Shown: positions 1,526 to 38,932 of the stretch, one piece after another
How the letters are laid out: each line of letters opens with the position of its first letter
How positions within the stretch are numbered: the stretch's first letter is position 1
Source of the DNA: a virus
Virus record (IMG/VR): IMGVR_UViG_3300047564_002259
Location: 1-49,538 of that record
DNA: 49,538 bases
Strand: one strand, 5' to 3'
Notes under the pieces: model-generated
Seen by the model: the letters and a program-made list of their open reading frames with translations, nothing else
The model's database searches: none
Told to the model about the DNA's origin: nothing
Program-made: the position numbers and the translations under genes

Positions 1526-1867
1526 TCAATTATATCCAGATAAGTATTTTTCCGCAGGATTCATTTTACTAAATTCTTTCTTCGCTCTTTCTTTTCTTTG
1601 TTGAGCAGCCCAATTTGAAAATGGTTGATAAGCAGATGCTCCAATAGTTACAGGGTTATATGGAGCAACGGTTCCCAAAGCACCAGATAATCTGTTTGCT
1701 GGTGTTTCTTTTGGATCTAATGCTTGTGTTGCATAAAGACCCCTAGTAAGTAATCCACCCACTCTTTTCACTATTGGATTTTGAGTTACTTTTTTTACTA
1801 GAGGATTTGAAATTTGAAACTCATTTATCTGATATGCTTCCACACAAAATTGCTTAAAAGTTTTCAT
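1526..1867 (-). CDS. Small late protein with capsid-targeting-like N-terminus
   Basis: A 113-residue protein. The start at 1867 is preferred over the longer frame because AAGGAGG lies 6 nt upstream and the ATG overlaps the preceding stop as ATGA, a coupled start. The N-terminus MKTFKQFCVE|A resembles the T4 internal-protein capsid targeting sequence (MKTYQEFIAE), although Cys replaces the usual Leu/Ile two residues before the Glu. The rest is basic and Pro/Ala/Gly-rich (IVKRVGGLLTRG, YNPVTIGASAYQ) with no recognised domain. It is cotranscribed with the glycine-zipper gene upstream. It is probably packaged in the head, which is inference from the leader peptide. Confidence 0.75.
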   Translation of the reverse strand: MKTFKQFCVEAYQINEFQISNPLVKKVTQNPIVKRVGGLLTRGLYATQALDPKETPANRLSGALGTVAPYNPVTIGASAYQPFSNWAAQQRKERAKKEFSKMNPAEKYLSGYN

Positions 1868-2904
1868 TTGTTTCCTCCTTGTTGAGATTTCTGCCAATTG
1901 CCATAGACTTTACCTGCCTGAGCAACAAAATCTCTATATGATTTCCTAACTTCAGAAGGAATTTGTTTTCTTATTTCATAAGGAACTGTCTTTCTTACAT
2001 TTGAAAGAACATCTTTAGTTGTTAACTTTTTACCATAATCACCTCTAATTGCCTTTGCCGCCGCTTCCCCTGCTTTAGAACCCAGAGTATATCCAGCAAC
2101 ACTACCACCAATCGCCCCAGGAATACCAAGAACACCCCCCACAGCGCCCCCCAGAGCGCCACCAGCAAGTGCTCCAGCAGATTTAAGAGCAGCAACACCA
2201 GCAGCAGTCTTTTTGCTTGCCCCTGCTGATCTTGCTGTATCATATCCAGTCTTTGCTTCTAATCCAGCACCAATAATTCCTGCAGTTTTACCAAGATTGC
2301 CTAAGGTTTTTTTAGCACTTGAAGCAAATGCTGCTCGTTGTGCAGATTTTGCTGCTTGATTAGTTTTTAATATATCCTTTAATGCATCGGCAGACGATTG
2401 AGTTCTTGATGCTGCTGATACTTTTTCTACACTGGTGGAAAGTTTTGTAGGTCCTTGCCATGCTTGAGTTCTATTGGAGGATGTTACTTTTGGTTTAGAT
2501 AATGTAGAAACAGGTGCTGGTAATGATTTTGGAGTAGTAGAAGTAGATTGAGATATAGAAGTTGTTTGGGTTTTTACAGGAGTTTTTACAATCCTAGTTT
2601 TAATTGACTTTTTAGGTTTACTTTTAATCTCTAATCTAGAAATTATTTCCTCCGGAGTTGTGGATCCTTTTGGCATATTAGTTATAATTATTGACTCTGG
2701 AGTCTTAATTGCTTTTACTTTTGCTTTTTTTCTAGCAACTTCTTTTTCATAAGCAGCAGTTGCTTCAGGATTTTGTGCTCTCATTTCATCATCAGAAAGC
2801 ACGGGGGTTTGTGCAAGTTTTTTTCTTGCTGCTTCTACATCTATCTTTTGCTTCTCCAAAAACTCTTTTCTACCTTCGTTTATAAATTTCCTAAAACTTT
2901 TCAT
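1864..2904 (-). CDS. Late protein with capsid-targeting-like leader and glycine zipper
   Basis: A 346-residue protein beginning MKSFRKFINE|GRKEF, matching the T4 capsid-targeting pattern with an (L/I)xE cleavage site (INE). Residues 20-220 are Lys/Ser/Thr/Ala-rich and probably disordered. Residues 243-290 form a glycine-zipper hydrophobic stretch (AGALAGGALGGAVGGVLG, then GAIGGSVAGY), a pattern that packs membrane helices in pore-forming and channel proteins. The C-terminal 56 residues are basic. A late promoter lies 17 nt upstream and the stop overlaps the next start (ATGA). No known family is recognised. I infer a protein packaged in the head that may act at the host membrane during DNA ejection; a purely structural role is equally possible. 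Confidence 0.8.
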   Translation of the reverse strand: MKSFRKFINEGRKEFLEKQKIDVEAARKKLAQTPVLSDDEMRAQNPEATAAYEKEVARKKAKVKAIKTPESIIITNMPKGSTTPEEIISRLEIKSKPKKSIKTRIVKTPVKTQTTSISQSTSTTPKSLPAPVSTLSKPKVTSSNRTQAWQGPTKLSTSVEKVSAASRTQSSADALKDILKTNQAAKSAQRAAFASSAKKTLGNLGKTAGIIGAGLEAKTGYDTARSAGASKKTAAGVAALKSAGALAGGALGGAVGGVLGIPGAIGGSVAGYTLGSKAGEAAAKAIRGDYGKKLTTKDVLSNVRKTVPYEIRKQIPSEVRKSYRDFVAQAGKVYGNWQKSQQGGNK

Positions 2905-2921
2905 CTTACAGATTTTTTAGG

Positions 2922-2929
2922 TATTTATA
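2922..2929 (-). promoter_or_regulatory. T4-type late promoter TATAAATA
   Basis: Exact match fused to the T-tract of the nrdB-operon terminator, 17 nt before the ATG at 2904. Confidence 0.85.
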
Positions 2930-2954
2930 AAAAAAGAGGGGATCAAGTCCCCTC
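2929..2954 (-). terminator. Terminator of the gp61-nrdA-nrdB operon
   Basis: Stem GAGGGGA/TCCCCTC with a 5-nt loop is followed by seven T residues. The stop codon of the 2943-3095 gene lies in the loop. Confidence 0.85.
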
Positions 2955-3095
2955 ATTACCTAACCATTCTTTTTTATAATCATAATCACCAAACAGAAAT
3001 TCATCACTTTCTGCTGCTTCTTTGTATGCGTTCAGGATTTCCTGTTCGCACCATTCATCATAGTTGGAATCCTGAGAAAGTATCTTTGGTAACAT
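2943..3095 (-). CDS. Small acidic protein overlapping the nrdB 3' end
   Basis: A 50-residue protein (MLPKILSQDSNYDEWCEQEI, ending WLGNEGT) in a different frame from nrdB and overlapping its last 38 nt. It is acidic and aromatic-rich with one Cys and no recognised motif. The codons look used (few rare patterns, a dense run of acidic and Tyr residues), and the frame ends exactly inside the operon terminator, as expected for the last gene of the operon. Translation is probably coupled to nrdB. Position suggests a role near ribonucleotide reduction, but the sequence does not show one. Confidence 0.6.
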   Translation of the reverse strand: MLPKILSQDSNYDEWCEQEILNAYKEAAESDEFLFGDYDYKKEWLGNEGT

Positions 3096-4239
3096 CTTGC
3101 TTAATCCCACCTACTATGTAGGACTCAACTTCCGTTTCCTGGGGTGCCACTTGAAGTCCTTTAGAAGAAATCCAATGATCCGTCCAAGGAAGTGGATTAT
3201 TCTTCGCAGGAATATCATAAAGTGGGCGAAGACCAATTGCCTTCATTCTACGATTTGCAATCCATTCAACATATTGCTGAAGAAGTTTATCATTCAGTCC
3301 AATCATTGATCCATCTTTAAATAGATACTCTGCCCAAAGTTTTTCCTGATTGACTGCAGTTTCAAAAGTCTTGTAAACCCATTGCTCTTCTTCTTTAGAA
3401 ATCTTTGCCATCTCAGGGTCATCACCTTCTTTCCACTTATTCAGGATATTTTGAGTGATGACCAAGTGCTGATTCTCATCTCTAGCAATCAGAGAGATGA
3501 TTTTTGCACTTCCTTCCATAAGTTTGAGTTCGCCAAAAGCAAAACTGCAAGCGAAACTGACATAAAAGCGAATACCTTCAAGAATATTAACGTTTGCAAC
3601 TGCTCGGAACAGTTTACGTTTGAGTTCATATCTTGCCTCTTGTGCATAAGGGACTTGTTCTAATGCATGAACCCACTCATTTGAATTGTCATAACGATGA
3701 GCACTATTGATGAAGTCGTTGTATGCCTGAGTTACACTCACGGCACGTTCTAAAATACGGTCATCTCTGAGAATAGTATCAAAAACTTCAGATGGGTCTG
3801 AATAAACGTTTTTGATGATATATGTGTATGAGCGACTATGAATCATCTCCATAAATTCCCATACCTTCATACACGCTTCCAGTTCGGGAAGGGAGCAGTA
3901 TGGAGAAAATGCCATACCGGGACCTCTTCCCTGAACAGAATCCAACATAACCTGATATTTTAGGTTGCTGGTAAAGATATGTTTTTGCTCTGGGCGTAGC
4001 ATATGATAGTCGCTACGATCTTTTTGAAGAGAAACCTCTTCTGGTCTCCAGAAATAACCAAGTTGCTGTGTTGTTAGTTTATCGAAGATTGGATATTTGT
4101 AAGAATCATATCTTTGAATTCCTAATGGTTGTCCAAAAAACATTGGTTGCTTTTTAGTGTCTACTTCTTTGGAATTAAAAACGGTCATAGAATCAACCAT
4201 TTTCTTATCCTGTGAATTGGTTTTGAAACTAAATGTCAT
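3058..4239 (-). CDS. nrdB: Ribonucleotide reductase class I, small (beta) subunit
   Basis: This 393-residue subunit holds the diiron-tyrosyl radical cofactor of class Ia ribonucleotide reductase. With NrdA it makes dNTPs for phage DNA synthesis in the host cytoplasm. Visible R2 features are WRPEEVSL near residues 64-71, the metal-ligand helix ELEACMKVWEFMEMIHSRSY at 119-138 with E..H ligands and the likely radical Tyr at 138, and the second ligand helix with RDENQHL. The length is normal for a T4-type R2. It follows nrdA after a 42-nt gap and is overlapped at its 3' end by a 50-residue ORF. No glutaredoxin or thioredoxin gene is adjacent, so the reductant must come from elsewhere in the phage or host. 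Confidence 0.97.
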   Translation of the reverse strand: MTFSFKTNSQDKKMVDSMTVFNSKEVDTKKQPMFFGQPLGIQRYDSYKYPIFDKLTTQQLGYFWRPEEVSLQKDRSDYHMLRPEQKHIFTSNLKYQVMLDSVQGRGPGMAFSPYCSLPELEACMKVWEFMEMIHSRSYTYIIKNVYSDPSEVFDTILRDDRILERAVSVTQAYNDFINSAHRYDNSNEWVHALEQVPYAQEARYELKRKLFRAVANVNILEGIRFYVSFACSFAFGELKLMEGSAKIISLIARDENQHLVITQNILNKWKEGDDPEMAKISKEEEQWVYKTFETAVNQEKLWAEYLFKDGSMIGLNDKLLQQYVEWIANRRMKAIGLRPLYDIPAKNNPLPWTDHWISSKGLQVAPQETEVESYIVGGIKQDVTKDTFSGFQL

Positions 4240-4281
4240 AATTTTTCTACTAAACTATCTCAACTGTTATATTTAACGGGA

Positions 4282-6582
4282 TTAGATTTTGCAACTTTCA
4301 CAGTCGTCCTCTTCGGCACTCATAATATCATCAAGAAGAGATTCAAGTTTTTGCTTTTTCTCTTCAACGACTTCATCAGTTTTATTATCATAAGTATTTT
4401 GATAGTATGCTGTTTTCCATCCCATCTTCCAGCACATAAGAAGGTCCTGCGCCATTACTGAAGTCGGGACTTCATTATCTGGATAATTTTCTGGATTATA
4501 AGACCAGTTTCCAGAAATTGCTTGGTCAAAGAACTTTTGCATTACAGCAACCACATTGATATAACCACGATTGCTAGGCATATCCCACAGAAGCGTATAA
4601 TTGTTCTTAAGTGTTTGATACTGGGGAACAATCTGCTTAAGTGGTCCTTTCTTCGATTTTTTAATGGACAAGTATCCTCTAGGTGGTTCGATTCCATTAG
4701 TTGCATTTGACACAACGGAACTGCTCTCCGAAGGCATCTGTGCGGACAGTGTTGAGTTCCTAACTCCGTACTGTTTAACCAATACTCTAAGTGCTTCCCA
4801 ATCATACTTCAATTCGTTTGGTACAATTTCATCAACATCCTTTTTGTATGTATCGATTGGGAGAATACCCTGAGCATACTTAGTGCGATGCGAATATTCA
4901 CAGGCACCTTTCTCTTTCGCAAGATTTACGGTTGCTTGAATCAGGTAATATTGAAATGCCTCAGTAAGATTATGGACTAGTTTCCAAGCACCAGGATCAT
5001 CATAATGCTCACCATGCTTAGCAAGATAGTGAGCAAGACCAATATAACCTACACCAAGCGAACGGCGTGCTCTGGTGGCAATTTCTGCTGCTTTAACTGG
5101 GTATCCTTGAAAATCAATGAGTTCATCAAGAGAGCGAACAGAAAGATCGCAGAGAACTTCAAGATCTTCAAGGTCTCTGAGTTTTCCGACATTAATTGCA
5201 CTAAGGATGCACAAAGCGATTTCACCATCAGTATCATCAATGTGCTGAAGTGGTTTAGTTGGCAAAGTAATCTCTTGGCAGAGGTTACTCATTTCAACCT
5301 TATCAAGGAATGATGAGTGAGAATTGCAGTGGTCGATATTCATAATATAAAGACGACCAGTTTCTGCTCGTTCTTTCAGGAGATCCAGAAAGAGTTCTTG
5401 AGCACCGATAGTTTTTCTTGGAATAGACTCATCTCGTTCATAACGAACATATAAGTCGTCAAATCCATCAGTGCCAAAAGCATCATACAGACCAGGAACG
5501 GAGTGGGGAGAGAAGAGAGAAATTTCTTCGTTACGGATGAATCGTTCATAGAAGAGTTTAGAGATTTGGATAGAATAGTCTAACTTACGAACGCGATTAT
5601 CTTCGGTTCCTTTGTTGTTTTTTAATACTAGGATATCTTCTATTTCTTGGTGCCAGATTGGGAAGTGGACTGTCGCGGATCCACCTCGTATGCCATTTTG
5701 CGTGCAACATCTGACAGTTGCTTCAAACTTCTTGAGAAATGGTACAACACCCGTGTGTTGAACTTCTCCACCTCTGATTTTGCTGTTGATGCCACGGATT
5801 CGACCAGCGTTGATGCCGATTCCCGCCCTCTGTGCAACGTATCTGCCAATAGCCATATCACTAGTAAAGATACTATCGAGGGTGTCATCAACATCAACAA
5901 GAACACAACTAGCATATTGTCTAAGCGGTGTTCGCACTCCTGCCATGATTGGTGTTGGAATGTTGATTTTGTGTTTGGAGATTGCGTCATAATACCTCTT
6001 AACGTAATCTAGGCGTGTTTCCTTTGGATATTTTGAGAAAATAGTTGCAGCAATCAATAAGTACATGAACTGTGGTGTTTCATAAAGTTCTCCAGTACTT
6101 CTATCTTGCACTAGGTACTTATCAACGACTTGACGTAGACCTGCATAAGTGAACATATAATCACGACTATGATCAATGAACGACTCAAGTTTATCAAACT
6201 CTTCGTCAGTATACATGTCAAGAATTTCTGAATCATAGACACCTCTACCAACGGCAAGAAGTACATGCTGCTTAACAGTAGGACAATCGTGCATACGACC
6301 AAACAACTGCTTGCGAAGAGCGAAAAGAAGCAAGCGAGCAGCGACGAACTGATAGTTGGGATGCTCCAAATCAATAAGATCAGAAGCAGAACGAATTAAA
6401 ATCTCCTGAATTTCTGCAGTTGTAATACCATCATAAAATTGGATACCTGATTGCATCTCTACTTGAGATGCCGATACACCTGCCAAGTCTTTGCAGGATT
6501 CTTCCACCATAACGTGGAGTTTATTTAGATCGAGGGGTTCAGTTTTACCATTTCGTTTAATAACTTTTGTTCCGTTACTCAT
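4282..6582 (-). CDS. nrdA: Ribonucleotide reductase class I, large (alpha) subunit
   Basis: A 766-residue subunit that reduces ribonucleoside diphosphates. The ATG at 6582 is chosen because it overlaps the gp61 stop (ATGA) and has GGAA upstream; the longer frame starts at TTG. An ATP-cone region lies at the N-terminus (VIKRNGKTEPLDLNKL). Cys226 (YASCVLVDVDD), Cys435 with Glu437 (NLCQEITLPTKPL) and Cys458 (ALCILSAINVG) correspond to the substrate-site redox pair and the thiyl-radical Cys of the family. The C-terminal tail ends CESCKI, the Cys pair that passes electrons from the external reductant. All catalytic residues are present. It lies in one operon with gp61 and nrdB. Confidence 0.97.
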   Translation of the reverse strand: MSNGTKVIKRNGKTEPLDLNKLHVMVEESCKDLAGVSASQVEMQSGIQFYDGITTAEIQEILIRSASDLIDLEHPNYQFVAARLLLFALRKQLFGRMHDCPTVKQHVLLAVGRGVYDSEILDMYTDEEFDKLESFIDHSRDYMFTYAGLRQVVDKYLVQDRSTGELYETPQFMYLLIAATIFSKYPKETRLDYVKRYYDAISKHKINIPTPIMAGVRTPLRQYASCVLVDVDDTLDSIFTSDMAIGRYVAQRAGIGINAGRIRGINSKIRGGEVQHTGVVPFLKKFEATVRCCTQNGIRGGSATVHFPIWHQEIEDILVLKNNKGTEDNRVRKLDYSIQISKLFYERFIRNEEISLFSPHSVPGLYDAFGTDGFDDLYVRYERDESIPRKTIGAQELFLDLLKERAETGRLYIMNIDHCNSHSSFLDKVEMSNLCQEITLPTKPLQHIDDTDGEIALCILSAINVGKLRDLEDLEVLCDLSVRSLDELIDFQGYPVKAAEIATRARRSLGVGYIGLAHYLAKHGEHYDDPGAWKLVHNLTEAFQYYLIQATVNLAKEKGACEYSHRTKYAQGILPIDTYKKDVDEIVPNELKYDWEALRVLVKQYGVRNSTLSAQMPSESSSVVSNATNGIEPPRGYLSIKKSKKGPLKQIVPQYQTLKNNYTLLWDMPSNRGYINVVAVMQKFFDQAISGNWSYNPENYPDNEVPTSVMAQDLLMCWKMGWKTAYYQNTYDNKTDEVVEEKKQKLESLLDDIMSAEEDDCESCKI

Positions 6583-7550: not shown

Positions 7551-7563
7551 TCTAAAGAGTTTA

Positions 7564-7920: not shown

Positions 7921-7922
7921 CT

Positions 7923-8159
7923 TTATATCTGCGGAGGGTTTCTCATCCAACGTTTTCTAGATCCTATACCAAGATATATATTTTTTTTCTTTTTCTTAAA
8001 AACTGGTGGTGTTTCGGTTTGCGGATCAAACCCCAATCCTGCAGCATTTGCAACATTAATTGGTCCAGAAGAAATAACACCTTCTTCTTTCAAATTCCGA
8101 ATAAGTTGAATTAATTTATCTAATTTATCCATTAAATTGATTGCAACTGCATTAGGCAT
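7923..8159 (-). CDS. Small basic protein, unknown
   Basis: A 78-residue protein (MPNAVAINLMDKLDKLIQLI...). An amphipathic N-terminal helix is followed by a Gly/Pro/Thr linker and a basic tail with five consecutive lysines and RKRW. It overlaps the end of the 8132 gene by 28 nt and ends 2 nt before the membrane-protein gene, so the three are probably translated together. I recognise no family. The helix plus polybasic tail would suit binding to nucleic acid or membrane. Confidence 0.6.
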   Translation of the reverse strand: MPNAVAINLMDKLDKLIQLIRNLKEEGVISSGPINVANAAGLGFDPQTETPPVFKKKKKNIYLGIGSRKRWMRNPPQI

Positions 8160-8503: not shown

Positions 8504-8512
8504 ATCATATTA

Positions 8513-9710: not shown

Positions 9711-11189
9711 TCAGTCAAACCTTGAACTTTGCATATCCTGCGATCTTTGAGCAGCAGCACGTCGAGCAGCAACTTTTTGAGCAGGGGATCTTGGTCCACC
9801 ATATTCACCAGCAGTGGGTGGTTTTTTGCCAGGAACTTTTTTACGCTGCCCTTCTGGTTTACCTTGCATTCCACGAATGGTTTTCTTTACTGCACGATAT
9901 GCTAAATCCGAACTTCCACCACTTTCTTTACCCTGCTCCCTTTCAAGACGATTTAACTCGTCAAGTTGGTCGCCATCTGGTTCATAAGAAGATGCCATAA
10001 CAATAGGATTTTTAGCACCCATTGCCCTTAATTTATTCTTCACTAAATTTATTTTAGCATAATCGCCACGAGTGTCTCTTTCATTTTCTTTATCACTACC
10101 TTTATCATCACAACCACATTCTGCTGCCTCTCCCACATTTTCAGGAAGACCTTTGTGCTTTGTTTTAGCAAATTTCTTTGCTTCTTTTTTAGTTATACCC
10201 TTTGCAGCTGCTGCCACCTCAGGAGATGCTGGATCTTCACCTTTCTTAGCAGCATAAACCATTCCCATAAAACGTTGCTGAGCCTTACTTACCGCCTTTT
10301 CAACAATAACTTTACCTTCCAATTCAGTATGTGCTACCTGAAGACCTGGATATCTTTTTGAACTTCCACTACCAGGAATTTCGGGAGCAATAACTATTTT
10401 ATTTTTTCCCTTCATAGGTTTAATTTGAGAATTATTTGAATCCTCCGTTTTGACCTCACCAATAAATTCCTCACCTAATCCTTTTCTTTTTGCAATTTCA
10501 GAACCACGAACCTTTCTACGATTTAATAGATACTTATCAGTTTTATCATGATCACCATCATTATCAATATCCTTATCTTCTTTTCCTACTGGGTCTAATG
10601 ATTTTCCTGCCTTTGCTCTTGCAGTCATTTCACCCTTGTTTTTTTCACCTTCATAAGGTTCGCCATATCCAGTCATTTCAACAGACTCAATGTTTGGATT
10701 TGCACGAAGAGAGCTAATTTTATCACGGGTTGCATATCTTACATATGATCTACCACTCTTATCAACGACCTTAACTTTATACTTTCTATGCTCTGCAGTT
10801 TCTAACTTTTCCATATAAGTTAGACGGATTGGTTCTTCAACCTTAATATTTTCTACAAAAACTTTATATAATGCATTTGCTAAATTATCAGAAGCAAAAT
10901 CTCCAATATTAAAATCTTCCGCTTGCATTCCACCCTTACCAAAAAGTTTTGCCTTTACCATTGTTTTTTCCTGTCCACTCATACTACTGTTTTGCATATA
11001 TTGAGAATACGCTTGGCGAAGAGGGATTTCTTCTCTTCTTGCCCTATAACGAATGTCATAAATTGCTTGCTTTACTCTTTTTTCGGGAGACTTCCCACCT
11101 TCTTCATGACCAAGTTTTCCACCTTTAGAAGCATCTGCAGCTTGTGGGAACTTTCTTGCAGGAAGTTCCTCAGCAATATGTTTTTTCAT
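9711..11189 (-). CDS. Large late protein with a DxDxDGD acidic loop, probably virion-associated
   Basis: A 492-residue charged protein (MKKHIAEELPARKFPQAADA). Residues about 136-180 look like a small beta domain (KYKVKVVDKSGRSYVRYATR, then MTGYGEPYEGE). Residues 207-216 read DIDNDGDHDK, a calcium-loop-like motif of the dockerin/EF-hand type. A C/D/E-rich segment (ECGCDDKGSDKENERDTRGD) and a basic C-terminus follow. HIAE and FIGE match the gp21 cleavage pattern. A late promoter variant lies upstream, inside the end of the NMNAT-like gene. I recognise no function; a head or tail accessory protein is the best inference from context. Confidence 0.7.
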   Translation of the reverse strand: MKKHIAEELPARKFPQAADASKGGKLGHEEGGKSPEKRVKQAIYDIRYRARREEIPLRQAYSQYMQNSSMSGQEKTMVKAKLFGKGGMQAEDFNIGDFASDNLANALYKVFVENIKVEEPIRLTYMEKLETAEHRKYKVKVVDKSGRSYVRYATRDKISSLRANPNIESVEMTGYGEPYEGEKNKGEMTARAKAGKSLDPVGKEDKDIDNDGDHDKTDKYLLNRRKVRGSEIAKRKGLGEEFIGEVKTEDSNNSQIKPMKGKNKIVIAPEIPGSGSSKRYPGLQVAHTELEGKVIVEKAVSKAQQRFMGMVYAAKKGEDPASPEVAAAAKGITKKEAKKFAKTKHKGLPENVGEAAECGCDDKGSDKENERDTRGDYAKINLVKNKLRAMGAKNPIVMASSYEPDGDQLDELNRLEREQGKESGGSSDLAYRAVKKTIRGMQGKPEGQRKKVPGKKPPTAGEYGGPRSPAQKVAARRAAAQRSQDMQSSRFD

Positions 11190-11197
11190 GAGAAAAT

Positions 11198-12505
11198 TTA
11201 CTTTTTACTCTTTTTTCTATACTTATTTATGAATTTTATACCATACGCTATAGCGCCTGGTTGAAGATTTTTACTACCAACACCAATTGCTCCAGGAGTC
11301 ATGTCTGAAAAATGTTTAAATGCCCCTAAAGTTCCCACTAAAGTATTTGGATGAATAGCATCTCGCATTCTTCTATCCATTCTAACTTCACTATATTCTC
11401 TCAAATCTTTAATCCAAGATTTAAACATTTGCCCAGACTCAGTTACACATATAAGATAATTTGTTCCTCTACGAATAATATTACCAACCAATCCGGTATT
11501 TAAATTTTCAACTTTTTCACCAATTCTAAAAATTGATTCTGCAAGATAATTTTCTCGAAGATTTTGATAATCAAATTTGGGAGCAATTTCCCATAAATTC
11601 CAACCTTCTTTAATACTCATCGAACCACGAAGAATATCAAATAATTCTTTTGCTTCTGAACGTTTTACTTCTGGAGGAAGACCAGATCTAAAAGTTTTAA
11701 AGTCATTCTCTGCTGCAGCAAGCCTCATTCTTGAAGCAGACATTCCTTCTACGCCAGTCGCATCAGGGTCTCTGTCTCCTGCAGAAACTACTTCAATATT
11801 ATCAAACTGATACAACTTTCCATTATAGTTGTTAGAAAGTTTTTCAAACTCTTTAACTCTGTCAGCACCGCCAATAATTCTTACATTTGTATATCCATCA
11901 TTGTGTGCCATTCTTAAGACATCAAAGATGGTTTTAGTATTAGGATCATTTACAATATTACCAGAGTGAGAGGGATAAAACCTCTGCATATATGCAATCT
12001 TAGTATCAGGGTCTAATGGATTCTTTTTCTTATCTTGACTTCTTGATGGGAATATTAAATATTGACCATCCTCATCTTGTGATGCTGATTGTGCAGCAAC
12101 ATCCATCAGTTGCTGGTGTCCAATTGTAGGTGGATTAAATCTACCAAAAGCAATAGTCAATGTGCCTTTAGTTTTTTCAACAGGTGGAGGTCCTACTTGT
12201 TGAGGAGGTTCTTGTGCTGCTGCTTGCTGCTCTGGTGCAGGTGCCTGTTGTTGTGTCGCTTGCTGTTTTAACTCTGGATCATTATATCCAGGAGAAGCGA
12301 TAGTTTTTTCCTTTTCAGTCTGCTTTGGATCTTTTGCACCAACTCTTTGACGCTTATTGTAAAACTTTAATTTCCCACCTTCCGTTTTAGCAACAAACTC
12401 ACCTTGACGATCATACCAACCACCGTGCCCATCACCAACGAGTCCAAGACGCTGTGCTTGTTGGGATGCAGACGCTTCTGTTAGGAATTGGAAAAAACTT
12501 TTCAT
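11198..12505 (-). CDS. NMNAT-like nucleotidyltransferase with capsid-targeting-like leader
   Basis: A 435-residue late protein. It starts MKSFFQFLTE|ASAS, matching the T4 capsid targeting pattern with an LxE cleavage site. Residues 60-110 are a Gln/Pro/Ala linker. Residues 114-260 are a HIGH-superfamily nucleotidyltransferase: AFGRFNPPTIGHQQLM at 119-134 carries the (T/H)xGH motif, and MSASRMRLA near 258 is the C-terminal (S/T)xxR-type motif. IIGGADRVKEF fits the middle of the fold. Residues about 320-370 are a KOW/SH3-like barrel (EKVENLNTGLVGNIIRRG). The family joins adenylyl or cytidylyl groups to small phosphorylated molecules (NMN, phosphopantetheine, glycerol-phosphate); the substrate is not readable. 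The leader suggests the enzyme rides in the capsid. Confidence 0.8.
   Translation of the reverse strand: MKSFFQFLTEASASQQAQRLGLVGDGHGGWYDRQGEFVAKTEGGKLKFYNKRQRVGAKDPKQTEKEKTIASPGYNDPELKQQATQQQAPAPEQQAAAQEPPQQVGPPPVEKTKGTLTIAFGRFNPPTIGHQQLMDVAAQSASQDEDGQYLIFPSRSQDKKKNPLDPDTKIAYMQRFYPSHSGNIVNDPNTKTIFDVLRMAHNDGYTNVRIIGGADRVKEFEKLSNNYNGKLYQFDNIEVVSAGDRDPDATGVEGMSASRMRLAAAENDFKTFRSGLPPEVKRSEAKELFDILRGSMSIKEGWNLWEIAPKFDYQNLRENYLAESIFRIGEKVENLNTGLVGNIIRRGTNYLICVTESGQMFKSWIKDLREYSEVRMDRRMRDAIHPNTLVGTLGAFKHFSDMTPGAIGVGSKNLQPGAIAYGIKFINKYRKKSKK
11224..11231 (-). promoter_or_regulatory. Late promoter variant CATAAATA
   Basis: Lies inside the 3' end of the NMNAT-like gene, 34 nt before the ATG at 11189. 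One mismatch from TATAAATA. Confidence 0.5.
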
Positions 12506-32935: not shown

Positions 32936-33188
32936 TTTTAGGAGGAATTACGATATCGTCAGGAGTGATCACAGCATACTTGTAATTATACAATTTACAA
33001 GTCTTTATGGCAAGGTCGTCGTCAACTTCAACAACATCCATTTCTTGGTCTTCTTGGTCTTCAAGCATCAAAGCATATCGAGTAGCATCATCTTCTTCTT
33101 CAAAGAGAAATAAAACTTTATGTCCATATTGGTCTTGGACAGCATAAGCACCATCGTCTTTTCTATCTTTGAGCGTGAGAAGAAACAT
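32913..33188 (-). CDS. DUF3110-like small acidic protein
   Basis: A 91-residue protein (MFLLTLKDRKDDGAYAVQDQ). VLFLFEEEDDATRYALMLED resembles DUF3110, a small family I know mainly from cyanobacteria. It sits between gp47 and gp46 in the recombination operon and overlaps gp46. The position may indicate a modulator of the nuclease, or a host-acquired gene kept for another reason. The family match is from memory and unverified. Confidence 0.55.
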   Translation of the reverse strand: MFLLTLKDRKDDGAYAVQDQYGHKVLFLFEEEDDATRYALMLEDQEDQEMDVVEVDDDLAIKTCKLYNYKYAVITPDDIVIPPKNASISQD

Positions 33189-34223
33189 TTACTCTACCTC
33201 GCAAGCTTGTCGATAAAGATCTTGAAAAATACCTTTGATGATGTTTTTATCAAATTCAAACTCTGCTTCGTCAATATAACGATTTAGAATTGACATTGTA
33301 TTTTCTTCTTCATCAATCTCAAAATCTTCGTTTTCCTGAATATCAAAGTTTTCTACAATCTTGAGATCTTGGATTCCTGCCGTGTAAAGTTTGTCGATAA
33401 ACTTCTCAAAATCTTTTTGTTTAGATTTTTTACGAACGATTACTTTGACAATCTTGTTTTCATATTCGGTAGTGTCGAATAGTTGGTAAGGAGTATCCTC
33501 ATAATAAATGTTATAGAATAATTTATAAGGATTGTTGATTGGAGTATGCTCTAATGTTTCCGTATCAAAAATATGAAATCCCCGAGTATCGTTCACATCA
33601 GTCCAATACATCTCATAAGGATTACCTAGATAGAAAACTTTTCCGTTATTTGATCGAGTGTGATAGTGTCCCGAGTAGACCCTATCGAACTTCTCAAATA
33701 GTTTGCTCTCCAAACCATGCTCCATGATGAGTTGTCGATTAACTCTAAATCCTTGGAGTTCAAGATGCCCCATCGCACATTTGCTAGTCGTCTTTTCAAT
33801 AATTTTAAGAGTTTTTGTTTCATTTTCTTGATTAATCCATGGTAAAAATAAAATCTTTAATCCACCAATATTAACTTCAGTCGGGTCACTATAAGTCTTT
33901 ATATTAGAATACGTCTGAAGGAGAAGTTCTGGAGAATTTACACTATTGGTATTCTTATAGTAAGTATCGTGATTACCAATAATCATATGGACTTCATACT
34001 TTTTAAGAGGGTCAAATACAACCCTCTTTGCCCATTCAAGACTTTGATAGTCAATCGACTTCCGACTATCAAAGGCATCTCCCATATGAATCACTGCCTC
34101 TACATTATTTTCTTCAAGGGCAGGAAAAAATACATTCTTGTAAAAAAGTTCGAAATAATCGTGGAGATGTTTAGACCCTTTTTTGGCACCATAGTGACTA
34201 TCGGTGATAATTGCTACCTTCAT
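33189..34223 (-). CDS. gp47: Recombination nuclease subunit, T4 gp47-like (Mre11/SbcD)
   Basis: A 344-residue calcineurin-like metallophosphoesterase, the nuclease partner of gp46. Metal-site motifs in order are TDSHYG (D8, H10), GDAFD at 48-52, GNHD at 83-86, GHLELQG and SGHYHTRS. The length matches T4 gp47 (339). Its start overlaps the gp55 stop (ATGA). Confidence 0.95.
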   Translation of the reverse strand: MKVAIITDSHYGAKKGSKHLHDYFELFYKNVFFPALEENNVEAVIHMGDAFDSRKSIDYQSLEWAKRVVFDPLKKYEVHMIIGNHDTYYKNTNSVNSPELLLQTYSNIKTYSDPTEVNIGGLKILFLPWINQENETKTLKIIEKTTSKCAMGHLELQGFRVNRQLIMEHGLESKLFEKFDRVYSGHYHTRSNNGKVFYLGNPYEMYWTDVNDTRGFHIFDTETLEHTPINNPYKLFYNIYYEDTPYQLFDTTEYENKIVKVIVRKKSKQKDFEKFIDKLYTAGIQDLKIVENFDIQENEDFEIDEEENTMSILNRYIDEAEFEFDKNIIKGIFQDLYRQACEVE

Positions 34224-34735
34224 TTGTTGCGGTATTGAATAGCATCTTTAATCCCATTATACTCTGAACTGTGCCCAGAAAGCAAGCTATCATCAACAAC
34301 CATAACCTCATCAAACCCAGTGCGTTCAATGATCTTGGTCTTAATATCCAGTTGCTTCTTTTCCTTTTGAATTCTTCTCAGGAATGCGTAGTGAATAATC
34401 TGAGTGAAATAAGCGAAAGGATTCTTAGACTTTTCTGGATCAAAGTTATGAATGTACTGAACACAGTTTTCAATGCCATCAGAAATCATATCCTCACGGA
34501 ACATATAATTCACAAAGTTTGGTTTATATGAAAGGTGAGTGGCAATCTTCAGAAAACACTCTCCAAGATAATTCGGAATGGGTGGTTTACCTTCCCAATG
34601 CTTGCCTCTATCTTCTTTAGTGGGGTTTCTATCGAACTTCTCATTGAATGACTTTTCGACCTTGGATCGATACACAATCATTGCTTCTAGAAGTTCTTTG
34701 TTGTTTACATAATGTTCTGTCTTTTTCTTAGGCAT
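34220..34735 (-). CDS. gp55: Late-transcription sigma factor, T4 gp55-like
   Basis: A 171-residue divergent sigma factor that directs RNA polymerase to TATAAATA late promoters, with clamp gp45 as activator in T4. DMISDGIENCVQYIHNFDPE and NPFAYFTQIIHYAFLRRIQKE are the sigma region 2-like segment for core binding and -10 recognition. It is close to the T4 length (185). A near-consensus bacterial promoter with extended -10 lies upstream, so host sigma can express it early. The many late boxes in this window are its targets. Confidence 0.93.
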   Translation of the reverse strand: MPKKKTEHYVNNKELLEAMIVYRSKVEKSFNEKFDRNPTKEDRGKHWEGKPPIPNYLGECFLKIATHLSYKPNFVNYMFREDMISDGIENCVQYIHNFDPEKSKNPFAYFTQIIHYAFLRRIQKEKKQLDIKTKIIERTGFDEVMVVDDSLLSGHSSEYNGIKDAIQYRNK

Positions 34736-34767
34736 AGCATTGGACTTATATAATATAGGTTATGCTT

Positions 34768-34797
34768 ATTATACCACAACATAGGGGGGCTTGACAA
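34768..34797 (-). promoter_or_regulatory. Sigma-70-type promoter of gp55
   Basis: On the minus strand TTGTCA, an 18-nt spacer, then TATAAT preceded by TGG (extended -10). It lies 33 nt before the ATG at 34735. Confidence 0.75.
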
Positions 34798-34846
34798 GTT
34801 ATAATATTGTGTGTAGAATACCTTTGTTCTGGTTGAAGATGAGAGT

Positions 34847-35254
34847 TTAGCTTTCTTTAAGACCTTTGAATATTCTTTCAAGTCTTTTGCGGGCATCTTC
34901 AACGGAAGAGAGATATCCCATCTTAGGAGACGGTTTTACTTGACCTGAAGGATTGTAAACATCAATACTATCATCATCTTCAATGTAGTTATTGTAAATA
35001 TCAATCATTCTTTTATCTGTAGTTTCAGTCATAGTAATAATCTTATCAAGTTTTATAATAAAGAAATCATCATTAGATAATTCTATCCAAGGTTTAACCT
35101 TAAGGTAAGTTCCATGTTGATTACTATAAGATTTCATAGTTACTGGATTTTGAAGCACTAAGACTGGATCTCCATCATTCTCATCAATTAAGACTAACGA
35201 TAGAATTTCTTCACCAGATATTAGTTTTATAATTGCGTAAAATTCATCTCCCAT
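34847..35254 (-). CDS. Sm-like small beta-barrel protein with C-terminal extension, probable
   Basis: A 135-residue protein (MGDEFYAIIKLISGEEILSL). KLISGEE, LQNPVTM, LKVKPWIELS.DDFF and LDKIITM are the landmarks shared with the 19577 and 19360 proteins. Residues 85-135 add an acidic then basic tail (VEDARKRLERIFKGL). Its start overlaps the uvsW stop (TAATG). It directly precedes the gp55 promoter. Possible RNA-binding or regulatory protein; not shown. Confidence 0.6.
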   Translation of the reverse strand: MGDEFYAIIKLISGEEILSLVLIDENDGDPVLVLQNPVTMKSYSNQHGTYLKVKPWIELSNDDFFIIKLDKIITMTETTDKRMIDIYNNYIEDDDSIDVYNPSGQVKPSPKMGYLSSVEDARKRLERIFKGLKES

Positions 35255-36717
35255 TAGTTTTTAAACGGTATATTTACAATATCATAATTAAAGTTTTCTT
35301 CATTATAGACTTTGATCCTTTCAATTAAGTGATTGAGGGTATAGTTCTTTCTTGACTTATAGCTGATATCATCGGCAATGTCATATAGAGTTGCTTTTGT
35401 CTTATTATTTCCTTTTCTTAAAACTCTACCAATTGACTGGAGATTACGGATTCTAGATTTCGAAGGTGATGCAAAAATAACATTATGTAAATTCTTAATG
35501 TTAATTCCTGTACTAAACGTTCCATAGGATGCCACAATAATTGCATTATTTTCTTTTTCAGTAATTTCACGTACTTTTTCTCTATCTTCAGTATCAACAC
35601 CACCATGCACAAAGAATACATGGCGATCATCACTGATACTTTTATTTATTAATTCGTATAAGGGTTGTCCGTGACCTTCAACACGGGCAAAGAGAATTAG
35701 AGTGTTTCCTTTTAAATCGAGAGCAAGATTCTTAATAAATTTATTTCTTTTTTCATGATTAATAATATATTGAACTTCATCTTCAAATGTTTCAAAACGG
35801 TTGGGTGGGTGTTTCAATAGAAGAATGTTAATGTCTAATGTAGCAACATGACCTTTCTTCATTAACTCATCAGTTTTAATAATCTTATAAGAAGGACCAA
35901 ATAATCCCTCTAAAACCCATTTATGAGTTTGTGATCCATCTAAAGTTCCAGTAAATCCAAATCTATATTTGCAGTCAGAAAGTTTTGTCATTATAGATAC
36001 TAATGACTTTGATTTAAACTGGTGTGCTTCATCTCCTACTACCACATTAAATCGTGAGAAATATTGTCGGGGAAGTTTGTAGATGGACTGCCAGGTAGTG
36101 ATAATTACCTGAGAGTTTGTTTCTCTTTCTTTTCCAGCATATATTTTGTGGCAGTATGATCCCACATCAAACCCATAATCTTCAAAATCTTTATACATCT
36201 GTTCTACAAGGGATGTCGTTGGGACAACTACGAGAATACTTTGTCCTTTCTCAACGTAATATCTCACAATTGAATATATCATCAACGACTTTCCAGAGGC
36301 AGTTGGAGATATCAACAACTTTCGATTATGTTTTAAAGCGTCGTATACTCCCTCAACTTGGTACTCACGGGGAGCGTACTTGCAAATAGAAGTCATATAG
36401 TCTTTCACACCTTCCTTTGAGATGTGCTCATTTACCTCAAAAGGAAGACCATAATACTTATTGTTTCGAAACTCATAAGTGTATTCGTGCTGCTCACAGA
36501 ATCTTATGAGTTTATCTAATAGACCAACGTATATTTCTCTCGTATTAACGTTAAACAAATAAATGTAACCATCCCACCACTTATTTTTGTAGGCTGGTGC
36601 AAATTTAGCATTTGGAACTTCAAATTGAAATGCGTCTCTTAACTCATAGTAGACGTGTGGATCTGCTTCAACTTGAAGAAATACCTCGTTCTTCTTTGAA
36701 ATAATCAAATGTGACAT
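35254..36717 (-). CDS. uvsW: UvsW-like SF2 helicase
   Basis: A 487-residue RNA-DNA helicase and branch-migration enzyme. In T4 it removes R-loops and shifts replication from origin to recombination mode late in infection. Walker A SPTASGKS ends at residue 144 and the DEAH box VGDEAHQF is at 229-232. FGFTGTLDGSQTHKW is motif III, and QSIGRVLRKGNN is motif VI with arginine fingers. An N-terminal DNA-binding region (1-110) precedes the helicase core. A late promoter variant upstream agrees with late expression of T4 uvsW. Confidence 0.94.
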   Translation of the reverse strand: MSHLIISKKNEVFLQVEADPHVYYELRDAFQFEVPNAKFAPAYKNKWWDGYIYLFNVNTREIYVGLLDKLIRFCEQHEYTYEFRNNKYYGLPFEVNEHISKEGVKDYMTSICKYAPREYQVEGVYDALKHNRKLLISPTASGKSLMIYSIVRYYVEKGQSILVVVPTTSLVEQMYKDFEDYGFDVGSYCHKIYAGKERETNSQVIITTWQSIYKLPRQYFSRFNVVVGDEAHQFKSKSLVSIMTKLSDCKYRFGFTGTLDGSQTHKWVLEGLFGPSYKIIKTDELMKKGHVATLDINILLLKHPPNRFETFEDEVQYIINHEKRNKFIKNLALDLKGNTLILFARVEGHGQPLYELINKSISDDRHVFFVHGGVDTEDREKVREITEKENNAIIVASYGTFSTGINIKNLHNVIFASPSKSRIRNLQSIGRVLRKGNNKTKATLYDIADDISYKSRKNYTLNHLIERIKVYNEENFNYDIVNIPFKN

Positions 36718-36738
36718 TCATAACATATCAGTTATGAT

Positions 36739-36746
36739 TATTTATT
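36739..36746 (-). promoter_or_regulatory. Late promoter variant AATAAATA
   Basis: Lies 21 nt before the uvsW ATG, just after the uvsY stop. One mismatch from TATAAATA. Confidence 0.5.
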
Positions 36747-36750
36747 TCTG

Positions 36751-37188
36751 TTAATTAAACCCTGCTTGGAAACGGTTCCATTCAATTGCGTTCTTGATTT
36801 GAAAAGTTCTATTAGAAACTGTCTTGATAATCTCCTCAAGAAACTTCAACATAATGTCATAGTATCTGATTTTAAGATCTATTTTATTCAGTCTCTCATC
36901 AGCATCCAGATGCCTCTGTAACGCCTCTTTGTCTCTAACTTTATATGGGAATGGTTCTTCAACATAAACCTCTGCTGGTGCCTTTCCTGTGTAGTAGTTG
37001 TATCTTTCTAATTTGGCCCTACTATAAGTTTCTCTTGCCTTTTCTCTCAGGAGAGTGATTGTATTGTATATGGTATAATATTTGGAATGAAGTTGTGGAA
37101 TTTTTAAAGATTCATCGTGCAAGTTATCAGGATCAATGACAGAATCTTTCTGCCACATTTCCTGAAGTTTTTCCAAATCAATTGACAT
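36751..37188 (-). CDS. uvsY: Recombination mediator UvsY
   Basis: A 145-residue helical protein that loads UvsX onto ssDNA covered by gp32. The N-terminus MSIDLEKLQEMWQKDSVID and LHSKYYTIYNTI are typical of UvsY, and the C-terminus (IIKTVSNRTFQIKNAIEWN) carries the oligomerisation helix. The length is close to T4 (137). Its 5' end overlaps the homing endonuclease gene by 11 nt. It precedes uvsW. Confidence 0.92.
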   Translation of the reverse strand: MSIDLEKLQEMWQKDSVIDPDNLHDESLKIPQLHSKYYTIYNTITLLREKARETYSRAKLERYNYYTGKAPAEVYVEEPFPYKVRDKEALQRHLDADERLNKIDLKIRYYDIMLKFLEEIIKTVSNRTFQIKNAIEWNRFQAGFN

Positions 37189-37858
37189 TTAATAATTTCC
37201 CCAAACACCATTCTTCTCCTGGACATTCTACATTTCTTTTGTTTATTTGTCCATTATTCCACCATTTTGTTCCTTTTTGTGAGGGTGGATAATGTTTTTT
37301 ATCTTTATGTGCTCTACTTATTTTATCTTTGGTTTTTTGACTGCAAGTACCTTTTTTAATACCTATGTGAGATTCAGTTAATTTTTTCTTATGTTCTTCT
37401 GTGAGTTTTTTTCCTTTATGTGCTTTACTTATTTTATCTTTAGTTTCTTGTGTGTGAGGTTTTCCTCTTTTATTACCTCTCATAATTTGGGATAATTTTT
37501 TCCTACCCTCTTCACTTATTACAGGACCATTTCTTCCCTTCATTTTTTCACTTTGTTTCTTTTTTTGATTTTCTGTTGCTATTCTTCCAGAAGATCCATC
37601 CCCACCATTAGTTCTGTTATGAAGAATACCTGTTTCTAAATCTTTTCTACCAAAAACAGCAATCATATAGATCTCGTGTTTGAATGCTTGTTCTTCTGTA
37701 AGATTTTTCTTTAAAAATAAAATTCTATTTTTTGGTGGGACATATACATTATTATGGTTTTTATTATATGCTCTAGATTTCTCACCTTTTCCAACATAGT
37801 ACGGAGTACCGTTTTTACGCAAATATGCGTAGGTATAGAACCTTTTTTGGTCTTTCAT
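37178..37858 (-). CDS. GIY-YIG homing endonuclease with NUMOD3 repeats
   Basis: A 226-residue free-standing homing endonuclease like T4 Seg proteins. FYTYAYLRKNGTPYYVGKG at 7-25 is the GIY-YIG motif pair, and HEIYMIAVFG with TNGGDGSSG continues the nuclease domain. From about residue 105, four NUMOD3-type DNA-binding repeats occur (ISEEGRKKLSQIMRG, TQETKDKISKAHKGK, TEEHKKKLTESHIG, SQKTKDKISRAHKDK). It has its own late promoter and terminator-like hairpin upstream and overlaps the uvsY start by 11 nt, so it sits as an insertion before uvsY. No intron is visible. Confidence 0.93.
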   Translation of the reverse strand: MKDQKRFYTYAYLRKNGTPYYVGKGEKSRAYNKNHNNVYVPPKNRILFLKKNLTEEQAFKHEIYMIAVFGRKDLETGILHNRTNGGDGSSGRIATENQKKKQSEKMKGRNGPVISEEGRKKLSQIMRGNKRGKPHTQETKDKISKAHKGKKLTEEHKKKLTESHIGIKKGTCSQKTKDKISRAHKDKKHYPPSQKGTKWWNNGQINKRNVECPGEEWCLGKLLNVN

Positions 37859-37883
37859 CTGCTTCTATTTTGGTTGGCATTAC

Positions 37884-37891
37884 TATTTATA
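37884..37891 (-). promoter_or_regulatory. T4-type late promoter TATAAATA
   Basis: Exact match, 25 nt before the homing endonuclease ATG at 37858. Confidence 0.8.
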
Positions 37892-37917
37892 ATAAAATAG
37901 GGTAGATTTCTCTACCC
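37891..37917 (-). terminator. Terminator upstream of the homing endonuclease
   Basis: Stem GGGTAGA/TCTACCC with a 4-nt loop and an interrupted T-tract (TATTTTATT). Confidence 0.65.
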
Positions 37918-37951
37918 ATCTCTAAAAAGCGCCAACCAATTAGAGCAAAAT

Positions 37952-37959
37952 TATTTATA
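37952..37959 (-). promoter_or_regulatory. T4-type late promoter TATAAATA with no own gene
   Basis: Exact match just after the stop of the gp3-like gene. Between it and the hairpin at 37891-37917 there is no credible ORF. Confidence 0.6.
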
Positions 37960-37964
37960 AAGAT

Positions 37965-38510
37965 TCATAAAGGATTTCCATCAGTTCCTAGAATATTATA
38001 TACAGTATACTTGAAAGTTACCTCTGCTGTAAAGTATTGAATGTCAGTTTGTGTTGCATCAAATTCTAAAGATGATAAAGAAAAGGGAAATAAATCTTTA
38101 AATTTTATAATTGATATTGTATTGAAATTACTATTTAAAATGTAAAGACTTCCGTCACTAAATGCTTCTTTTGAATCTTGAACTCCATTTTCTGTAATTA
38201 AATCTCTATATTGCTGTGTTGTTTCTGGGAAACCCAAACCAGTAATCCAATTATGTATTGACACATAATTTTCCATATTTTCATCAACTAAAAATCTAAT
38301 GTTCAAATCACCATAAGTTGGTTTTGTTCCTGGAACATCAAGATCCTTAAGGTATGATGGTTGAATAACAGATGTTAAAGAAATCTCTGGAATTCTAGCT
38401 GAATTGCAAAAAAATCCAACCTTAGGATATTTTGCAATGGTAAGTTTAAATCCTACAGGAGAAAGAAAATTTCTATTTGCAATTTGATTTGGAAAATTAC
38501 AATTCGCCAT
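37965..38510 (-). CDS. gp3: Tail completion/tube-end protein, gp3-like, probable
   Basis: A 181-residue protein (MANCNFPNQIANRNFLSPVG). The fold pattern, with FKLTIAKYPKVGFF, IPEISL, LRFL/IRFLVDENM and the late strand FTAEVTFKYTVYNI, resembles the gp3/gp19 tail-tube family, and its length matches T4 gp3 (176), which caps the tail and stabilises the sheath. I recall that cyanophages often carry gp3 next to uvsY, which fits. It starts on the last base of the RlpA-like stop (TAATG). A second tail-tube-like protein is possible. Confidence 0.6.
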   Translation of the reverse strand: MANCNFPNQIANRNFLSPVGFKLTIAKYPKVGFFCNSARIPEISLTSVIQPSYLKDLDVPGTKPTYGDLNIRFLVDENMENYVSIHNWITGLGFPETTQQYRDLITENGVQDSKEAFSDGSLYILNSNFNTISIIKFKDLFPFSLSSLEFDATQTDIQYFTAEVTFKYTVYNILGTDGNPL

Positions 38511-38932
38511 TATTTTTTCTTAGTTGGAACTATTTTTGGAATATTCATATTCACTTTAACTCCTAAATCAGGAATTTTTGGTTTTGGTTTTTCTTTTGGT
38601 ATTGGTGTAACATCAAGATCTCTTACACCAAACTGTTTATAATCTTTATATCCAAGATCTTTTGTTGTTTGTGTAGTTAAGTCAAATTTACGATCTCCGT
38701 GATATGGACCCCTATCAACAACAGGTGCAACAACAGATCTGCCGCTTTTAGGATCGGTAATTTTTACTTTGCTTCCCAATGGCAATGTTTTATGAGCAAC
38801 TCCCCTAGTTGTGGGTGATAATTTTATACCAGAAGCAGTTGGATTTCCATATAATCCTGGACCATAAGAACTTGTTGATACTATTGCACCAAAAGGAATT
38901 GCTTCTTTTAAAAATTCCTTAAAAGTTTTCAT
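38510..38932 (-). CDS. RlpA-like double-psi beta-barrel protein with capsid-targeting-like leader
   Basis: A 140-residue late protein. It begins MKTFKEFLKE|AIPFG, the closest match in this window to the T4 capsid targeting sequence with an LxE site. Residues 17-110 are an RlpA-type barrel: SSYGPGLYGNPTASG, HKTLPLGSKVKI (His47) and VVDRGPYHGD (Asp73). RlpA proteins bind or cleave denuded peptidoglycan. Two catalytic-region acids are missing: where the family has GE.(F)D, this protein has G-I-K-L-S. It may bind or loosen peptidoglycan rather than cut it. A Lys/Pro tail ends the protein. It follows gp23 and a terminator and has a late promoter variant. Confidence 0.82.
   Translation of the reverse strand: MKTFKEFLKEAIPFGAIVSTSSYGPGLYGNPTASGIKLSPTTRGVAHKTLPLGSKVKITDPKSGRSVVAPVVDRGPYHGDRKFDLTTQTTKDLGYKDYKQFGVRDLDVTPIPKEKPKPKIPDLGVKVNMNIPKIVPTKKK

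Follow-up and report, generated by a model that had tools for sequence, protein, structure and literature searches.

A putative cyanophage form of the T4 capsid-targeting sequence on unrelated cargo proteins

Introduction

The internal proteins of bacteriophage T4 and their capsid-targeting sequence were reportedly treated by Mullaney and Black in 1996 (as cited in PMC9391042). In a T4 review (PMC9026906), ten leader residues of the T4 internal proteins are described as directing proteins into the T4 head, and the prohead protease gp21 is described as cutting after L/I-X-E. In internal protein III (IPIII), residues 4 and 7 are important for targeting and residues 8 and 10 for processing, and D at position 10 blocks cutting while packaging is kept; the propeptide of Alt, an ADP-ribosyltransferase injected by T4, consists of seven residues (PMC9026906). 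The internal protein (ip) genes of T-even phages were collected by their signal sequence (Repoila 1994, as cited in PMC12373910). Here, four genes are described that begin with nearly the same ten-residue peptide (the leader) and encode unrelated proteins in a 49.5-kb IMG/VR virus record with T4-type head genes (IMGVR_UViG_3300047564_002259, positions 1 to 49,538; hereafter the window), and the leader is followed through related phages. No published description of a cyanophage capsid-targeting leader was found in a search made mostly without subscription journals, and the terms "capsid targeting sequence" and "cyanophage" co-occurred in PMC9026906 alone within the literature searched.

Results

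Four genes of the window share a leader

As noted in the preliminary description, four genes on the minus strand open with near-identical peptides, namely MKTFKEFLKE followed by A (start at 38932), MKSFFQFLTE followed by A (12505), MKSFRKFINE followed by G (2904) and MKTFKQFCVE followed by A (1867), with the common pattern MK[ST]F..F..E. Their likeness to the T4 leader extends to F4, F7 and E10 in 4/4 genes and to L or I at position 8 in 3/4. A six-frame scan of window open reading frames (ORFs) of at least 40 amino acids (aa) gave no fifth start codon fitting the leader, and the DNA form of the motif matched the window at those four places only, with 0 matches of the reversed pattern. A 96-kb IMG/VR record, 100% identical in two matches fetched, carries the window's four leaders and a fifth, MKSFQQFISE.

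The bodies behind the four leaders are unrelated, domain searches giving DPBB/RlpA, a cytidylyltransferase-like protein, a Gly-zipper protein and a matchless 113-aa protein. All features given here lie on the minus strand. The RlpA-like DPBB protein (38510..38932; 140 aa; PF03330, E 7e-11) occupies the slot between gp23 and gp3 and has its leader at 38903..38932, with a predicted gp21 cut before A11. The cytidylyltransferase/NMNAT-like protein (11198..12505; 435 aa; T4-GC190 family; PF01467, phrog_395), hereafter the nucleotidyltransferase, has its leader at 12476..12505, the cut again being predicted before A11, and the Gly-zipper protein (1864..2904; 346 aa) at 2875..2904, with a cut predicted before G11. 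The leader of the 113-aa basic protein (1526..1867), the start of which overlaps the end of gene 2904 and is preceded by an AAGGAGG ribosome site, lies at 1838..1867, where the predicted cut before A11 is less certain. All four mature proteins would be basic (isoelectric point, pI, 9.3–10.3), with values of 10.0, 9.3, 10.3 and 9.9, respectively. The Gly-zipper protein gave weak matches only, the best to phrog_1047 (1e-8) over an Ala/Lys/Gly-rich stretch and probably compositional; the 113-aa protein had no match in Pfam/PHROG-type domain searches, and neither protein matched a relative in named phages. Relatives of the Gly-zipper protein in loci L086 and L087, with a first body part different from the window's, start with MKSFQNFTNTIVE followed by A, which keeps the F..F part and the I-X-E part with its A, with three extra residues between.

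The head genes gp20, gp21, gp22, gp23 and gp3 were assigned in the window by comparison with Synechococcus phage S-SRM01, its closest named relative judged on gp21 (81%). Both processing elements proposed earlier were recovered: the prohead protease gp21, the expected leader-cutting enzyme, at 41651..42301 (PF03420, Peptidase_S77, E 3.5e-40; phrog_207, 9e-82), and FLYE followed by A at residues 51–55 of gp23 (40224..40238), which is taken as the propeptide end and has the P3-P1' pattern of the leaders. The gp22 scaffold (40436..41608), assigned by sequence and position, is the expected core partner of the leaders, and the S-SRM01 gene in the same place is annotated as prohead core scaffold protein.

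The claim that all four genes have late promoters or belong to late operons stood in part. For gene 2904, the T4-type late promoter box TATAAATA lies 17 bp upstream (2922..2929), and gene 1867 is covered by its overlap with 2904; this box occurs 11 times in the window against 3.8 expected, 11/11 on the coding strand. As for the other two, CTAAATA, 13 bp upstream of the RlpA-like gene, shows no enrichment across the window (9 against 10.9 expected), and neither TATAAATA nor CTAAATA was found in exact form at gene 12505. Among at least 221 leader genes of the window and its relatives, many of them mutually related, 86 have a late-type box within 60 bp upstream, against 8 after one shuffle per upstream stretch.

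Specificity of the leader across genomes

The DNA pattern ATGAARWSNTWY(N6)TWY(N6)GAR was scanned over 31 whole records, comprising 15 IMG/VR records from loci already fetched, some of them chosen for leaders, and 16 named records chosen before the scan, several for their homologue of RlpA or a nucleotidyltransferase; S-SRM01 was included once its leaders were known. The scan gave 47 matches in 22/31 records and 0 for the reversed pattern. T4 was matched three times, at gene 61.1 and at ipII and ipIII, whose products are established internal proteins. Similarity searches with gp21, the Gly-zipper protein or RlpA (the leader being one of six RlpA search words) supplied 124 loci, in which 41 of 5452 distinct ATG starts fit the motif. 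Across 1000 permuted motifs the mean count was 0.24 and none reached 41; the maximum, 26, came from a near copy of the motif. A chance origin of the shared leader was rejected on the reversed-pattern and permuted-motif controls.

The gp21 family is present in 16/19 named genomes, and a leader gene was found in 13/16 genomes with gp21 and in 0/3 without it (Fisher P 0.02), the latter three being small (45–139 kb) and scanned by pattern rather than read start by start. The 13/16 were counted by strict or loosened scan or, in ACG-2014f, by reading the nucleotidyltransferase start (MRSFLTFLTE). A loose match in HTVC008M (MKHYPLYLID) and an antisense GTG match of 51 aa in S-SM1, scanned over two stretches, were taken as chance.

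Three single starts are recorded here. T4 gene 61.1 (NC_000866 18966..19130, minus strand; L146) encodes 54 aa with the leader MKTFKEFIKE, behind which a stretch resembles, by eye, T4 gp23 after its SFLTE and A; judged from these features, its product is perhaps a further T4 internal protein. P-TIM68 (NC_028955 118770; L331) has MKTYKEFIQD before a body resembling, by eye, the S-CREM2 S-adenosylmethionine (SAM) lyase, and KVP40 (NC_005083 39187; L333) has MKQFCNFLAE before a methyltransferase-like body (by eye).

Bodies behind the leader

Leader ORFs were collected from at least 310 loci, at least 119 of which had been fetched with the leader pattern itself; because these loci are conditioned on the leader, residue frequencies at positions 2, 4, 6, 7, 8, 10 and 11 were not used as evidence, nor was leader invariance in alignment A1, which is likewise conditioned by the fetching. 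After leader removal, at least 221 distinct leader proteins fell into at least 68 body clusters, 51 of those listed being singletons, by single linkage at E 1e-3, a procedure that may split distant relatives and for which short ORFs were taken without individual check. Common descent of whole leader proteins was rejected, since the clusters do not align at E 1e-3. A mature pI above 8 was predicted for 53/61 complete cluster representatives as against 8/34 other window genes, these 34 being a selection. Leader genes also lie close together, five within 3.5 kb in L245 and five in the 16-kb record L126.

Of 30 cargo proteins (29 with an N-terminal leader and S-CREM2 ORF12), 9 matched Pfam at E ≤0.01, the kinase included, and 5 exceeded the curated cut-off. 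SAM lyase was identified in S-CREM2 ORF6 (PF23780, 2e-19) and Glucosaminidase in L303 (PF01832, 4e-13), and the domains of unknown function DUF5661, DUF5662 and DUF6267 were found in cargo of L202, L245 and L239, respectively. Below the cut-off were GNAT in cargo of S-CRM01 and L151 and a kinase match in S-CREM2 ORF14. The cargo of L209 is 5'-3' deoxyribonucleotidase-like (phrog_2643), and L288 encodes an Alt-like ADP-ribosyltransferase (phrog_802, 1.6e-15; PF03496, 1.8e-22) behind the leader-like MKFEDFISE. Domain and PDB searches gave no support for L159 and L161 as ADP-ribosyltransferases, and a PDB sequence search with two cargo bodies returned nothing below E 0.1.

The nucleotidyltransferase and a second module

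The product of gene 12505 matches PF01467 (1.8e-6) and phrog_395 (3e-100), contains the HxGH-type motif GRFNPPTIGH and is orthologous to P-SSM2 T4-GC 190, a family known as a virion protein of cyanophages (PMC3037559, PMC9602691, PMC10665884). The CoaD/NMNAT fold is among its best structure matches, with a template-modelling score (TM) to target of about 0.4–0.7; the fold does not tell the substrate (NAD from NMN), because CoaD-type and NMNAT chains rank equally high. K/R2, F4, F7 and E10 are kept in 11/11 nucleotidyltransferase starts read in named phages, of which a loosened leader pattern supplied two (Syn9 and S-CRM01) and similarity or annotation nine, that of S-PM2 being excluded.

Directly behind the leader, many nucleotidyltransferases carry a module of about 40 residues, QAKxLGLxGDGHGGWYDxxGEFVAKTEGGKLKF, which lies in the window at about residues 13–48 (12362..12469, minus strand). 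AlphaFold predicts part of a helix, which ends here, and a small beta sheet (pLDDT about 80), followed by a low-confidence linker (residues 56–103 in the window protein) before the enzyme. A profile of the module over all fetched loci gave 73 rows. The enzyme motif is present in 46 of these; the remaining 27 include 5 below significance and many truncated or variant nucleotidyltransferases. Outside this enzyme family, the module is clearly carried by S-CREM2 ORF12, by the kinase-like ORF14, which has two copies of it, and by two ADP-ribosyltransferases, that of L288 with the leader and that of L234 (E 4e-5) without a canonical leader. Leader, module and enzyme seem to recombine independently, because the module also stands on other bodies and L235 joins leader and nucleotidyltransferase without the module. 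Binding of the module to scaffold or DNA is our guess.

Several observations adjoin this family. In S-SKS1 (NC_020851 73234, minus strand; L148), the reading frame of the nucleotidyltransferase stops at 111 aa, which leaves leader and module detached from the enzyme in that record. S-CREM2 ORF12 (L180:7704-10313) is annotated as a CRISPR-associated Cas9 endonuclease, a doubtful name because ORF12 matches nothing in Pfam at E 0.01 and, among PHROGs, only phrog_3561 (unknown function). Residues about 329–370 of the window nucleotidyltransferase form a C-terminal small beta domain, which in the model is perhaps KOW-like; one fold match aligned 53 columns (residues covered unspecified) to a chain of an RNA polymerase II elongation complex, with 26% identity and an rmsd of 1.4. 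Behind the nucleotidyltransferase, 9711..11189 (minus strand) encodes a 492-aa protein with DUF3008; S-SCSM1 gp280, in the same place, and the DUF3008-like gp279 (by eye) are labelled virion proteins.

The gp23–gp3 slot

The RlpA-like protein of the window has the conserved DRGP, D73, R74, G75 and P76 being invariant in 21/21 aligned sequences. K2, F7, E10 and A11 are also invariant in these 21, which include the window's and were fetched with six search words, one being the leader itself; position 4 is F or Y. A secretion signal or lipobox is absent at the N-terminus of the window protein, where the leader stands instead, and the homologues of S-PM2, S-CRM01, S-CBS4, S-CBWM1 and phiM12 have hydrophobic signal-peptide-like or lipobox-like starts (by eye). 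Among 54 records, none from named phages matched more than 80% of the window protein; leader-bearing RlpA comes from the window's uncultured relatives, where its gene sits between gp23 and gp3. Among 44 loci that were fetched with gp21 and have this gap readable, 13 hold a leader gene in it, and the slot bodies form four clusters, namely RlpA (140 aa) and proteins of 56, 57 and 78 aa, the RlpA cluster being joined by similarity with a 192–222-aa form without a Pfam match. The S-SRM01 slot holds the 56-aa leader gene. No leader gene stands in the remaining 31 gaps, 21 of which span less than 130 bp, the other 10 being longer. Adjoining gp3 in the window, 37178..37858 (minus strand) has a GIY-YIG-like start and repeated NUMOD-like segments (by eye), and its predicted product is probably a homing endonuclease.

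Virion proteomes of relatives

Virion protein lists have been published for related phages, not for the window virus. For S-CREM2, the list holds 52 of 219 ORFs (PMC10665884 Table 3). A six-frame scan of this genome gave five leader-like ORFs, 5/5 of them in the list (P 6.5e-4, with a loose regular expression partly widened after seeing these starts): ORF6, a SAM hydrolase (MKDFDSFLEE), ORF13 (MKDLHSFLTE), ORF14, a kinase (KRFDAFLTE after a GTG start), ORF136 (MQTFSMFFSE) and ORF154, a nucleotidyltransferase (MKNFSSFLTE). ORF12, also listed, has LRFASFMAE followed by A inside its first 25 residues. The leader-bearing NMNAT of S-SCSM1, gp281, is labelled a virion protein (record; also PMC9602691), and the T4-GC190 nucleotidyltransferase family is among 41 S-SM1 virion proteins (PMC3037559), giving 1/1 leader protein for that phage. 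With a pattern fixed beforehand, 4/5 leader proteins of the three phages are in virions (P 0.005), nucleotidyltransferases making up three of these four; with the loose expression, nucleotidyltransferases removed and S-SCSM1 gp030 counted, 4/5 are (P 0.009). These two values, and the P of 0.36 given in the Discussion, take 240 annotated features as the S-SM1 total, and another pooled P used a rounded 230. The published lists place the NMNAT-like protein, kinase and SAM hydrolase in purified particles and leave cargo or carry-over undecided (PMC10665884, PMC9602691). The presence of leader proteins in virions is mostly supported by these proteomes.

A second recurrent N-terminus

The recurrent window N-terminus LxEAYNxxY was tried as another swappable leader; it gave 32 matches and 0 reversed, and is not established as such because all matches fell into one cluster of homologues. 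Window genes 1453, 29860 and 30897 (minus strand) have an LxEAYNxxY-like N-terminal motif in common, the first two also share an EGYADT..NMSEEW segment, and S-SCSM1 gp089, which begins similarly, carries a virion protein label.

Discussion

A modular leader on unrelated cargo, as first proposed for the window, is strongly supported by sequence comparison, since it fits the residues mapped in T4, is specific against the controls and precedes at least 68 body clusters. Very probably, the ten N-terminal residues are the T4 capsid-targeting sequence in its cyanophage form and load cargo into the head for delivery; core binding, a location inside the capsid, cleavage, ejection and effector roles are what we infer. 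In the proposed mechanism, residues around F4 and F7 would bind the scaffold core (gp22 and its partners) during prohead formation, and the protein behind the leader, whichever it is, would thereby be enclosed. Cutting by gp21 after E10 would then free the basic mature protein among the DNA, with which it would leave into the next cell. The leader could thus act as a swappable module, fitted in the window to the RlpA-like protein, the nucleotidyltransferase, the Gly-zipper protein and a small basic protein, and in relatives to dozens of others, including SAM lyase, the Alt-like ADP-ribosyltransferase and the kinase-like protein.

The closest described counterparts are IPI, IPII and IPIII of T4, with which the present proteins share a ten-residue N-terminal leader (MK[ST][FY]..F[IL].E) with a gp21-type cut site, unrelated basic bodies and T4-type head genes. 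They differ from the T4 proteins at position 4, which is F instead of Y in all four window genes and the 11 nucleotidyltransferases read, in including large enzymes, in the extra module of about 40 residues on several of them, in the gp23–gp3 slot that holds leader genes, and in the cyanobacterial hosts of the named relatives. The T-even ip collection is similar in that many different bodies follow one leader, which was used to find injected proteins; three T4 bodies tested inhibit GmrSD restriction (PMC12373910), whereas the 68 clusters are known from sequence. T4 Alt (PMC9026906) has a counterpart in the Alt-like domain of L288, although the leader pattern does not match T4 Alt and L288 adds the second module. 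In the accessible parts of the T4-GC190 papers no mention of a leader was found, and the leader offers a candidate packaging mechanism that those accounts lack.

Several points weigh against the capsid-targeting interpretation. The leader of gene 1867 has C rather than L/I at position 8, which makes processing of its product less sure, and D occupies position 10 in 8 of at least 221 leader proteins, such as MKSFQQFQED in S-SRM01; by analogy with T4, where D10 stops cutting only, these relatives are predicted to be packaged uncut. The DNA pattern misses IPI and Alt of T4 itself and thus gives an incomplete account even of that phage. S-PM2, phiM12 and HTVC008M have gp21 and gave no convincing leader in the scans, and KVP40 was counted as leader-bearing on one loose match. 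Among the virion data, S-SCSM1 gp030 (MKTFKQFMSES, 106 aa) lacks the virion protein label that both its neighbours have, which leaves 1/2 leader proteins for that phage; the 5/5 of S-CREM2 depends on the partly widened expression; and with the pattern fixed beforehand, removal of the nucleotidyltransferases, already known as virion proteins, leaves 1/2 (P 0.36). The S-CREM2 authors themselves state that virion lists cannot separate inside from outside or carry-over (PMC10665884).

The leader might target the prohead core while its proteins serve head assembly as scaffold or core parts instead of acting in the next cell. Many bodies are indeed short, basic and without a recognisable domain, the gp23–gp3 slot sits in the head gene block, and loss of IPIII slows T4 head assembly (PMC9026906); we nevertheless regard this as unlikely, as SAM lyase, Glucosaminidase and ADP-ribosyltransferase have no obvious assembly role, and the bodies are variable and many slots empty (a leader gene in 13/44), unlike essential core parts. 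A sorting peptide for another address, such as tail, baseplate or membrane, would suit a tail-tip or periplasmic role of the RlpA-like and Glucosaminidase bodies, and proteomes show only presence in the particle preparation. The peptide, however, resembles the ipII/ipIII leader, which directs proteins into the T4 head (PMC9026906), ends in a gp21-type cut site like FLYE-A of gp23 and was not found in the 3/3 genomes without gp21, so such an address appears very improbable. Carry-over of abundant late proteins into the mass-spectrometry samples, the shared peptide reflecting something else, is the least credible of these alternatives. It was raised by the authors of PMC10665884 and PMC9602691, but it would not select one N-terminal motif, as seen in the partly post hoc S-CREM2 result (5/5, P 6.5e-4) and in the 4/5 (P 0.009) that remains without nucleotidyltransferases and with gp030 counted.

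On the preferred reading of capsid loading for delivery, the roles of the window's cargo are open to guesses: the nucleotidyltransferase might change the host nucleotide or NAD pool early, the RlpA-like protein might act locally on the wall or use its barrel in a non-wall role, and the Gly-zipper and small basic proteins perhaps bind membrane or DNA. A wider proposal, for and against which we see the case as evenly balanced, is that T4-like cyanophages possess a general effector delivery system, in which one leader and often a second adaptor module load a variable repertoire of enzymes for host takeover and counter-defence into the head (SAM lyase, Alt-like ADP-ribosyltransferase, kinase, NMNAT-like enzyme, wall hydrolases). 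Their genes would be exchanged via fixed slots such as gp23–gp3, and an enzyme family could be switched between export by signal peptide and capsid loading by a swap of its N-terminus.

The mechanism is already that of T4, and the advance is the enzyme cargo in cyanophages. New at the level of predicted proteins are the second module of about 40 residues on the nucleotidyltransferase, the kinase-like protein and the ADP-ribosyltransferase, and the gp23–gp3 slot with different leader genes. The leader on many cargo proteins suggests a general route by which ready-made proteins, including enzymes, enter infected cells, and it gives a mechanism and a sequence-only rule to predict packaged proteins in a widespread aquatic virus group. 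What cyanophages deliver in the first moments of infection becomes directly testable, and the leaders offer natural loading tags for cyanobacteria.

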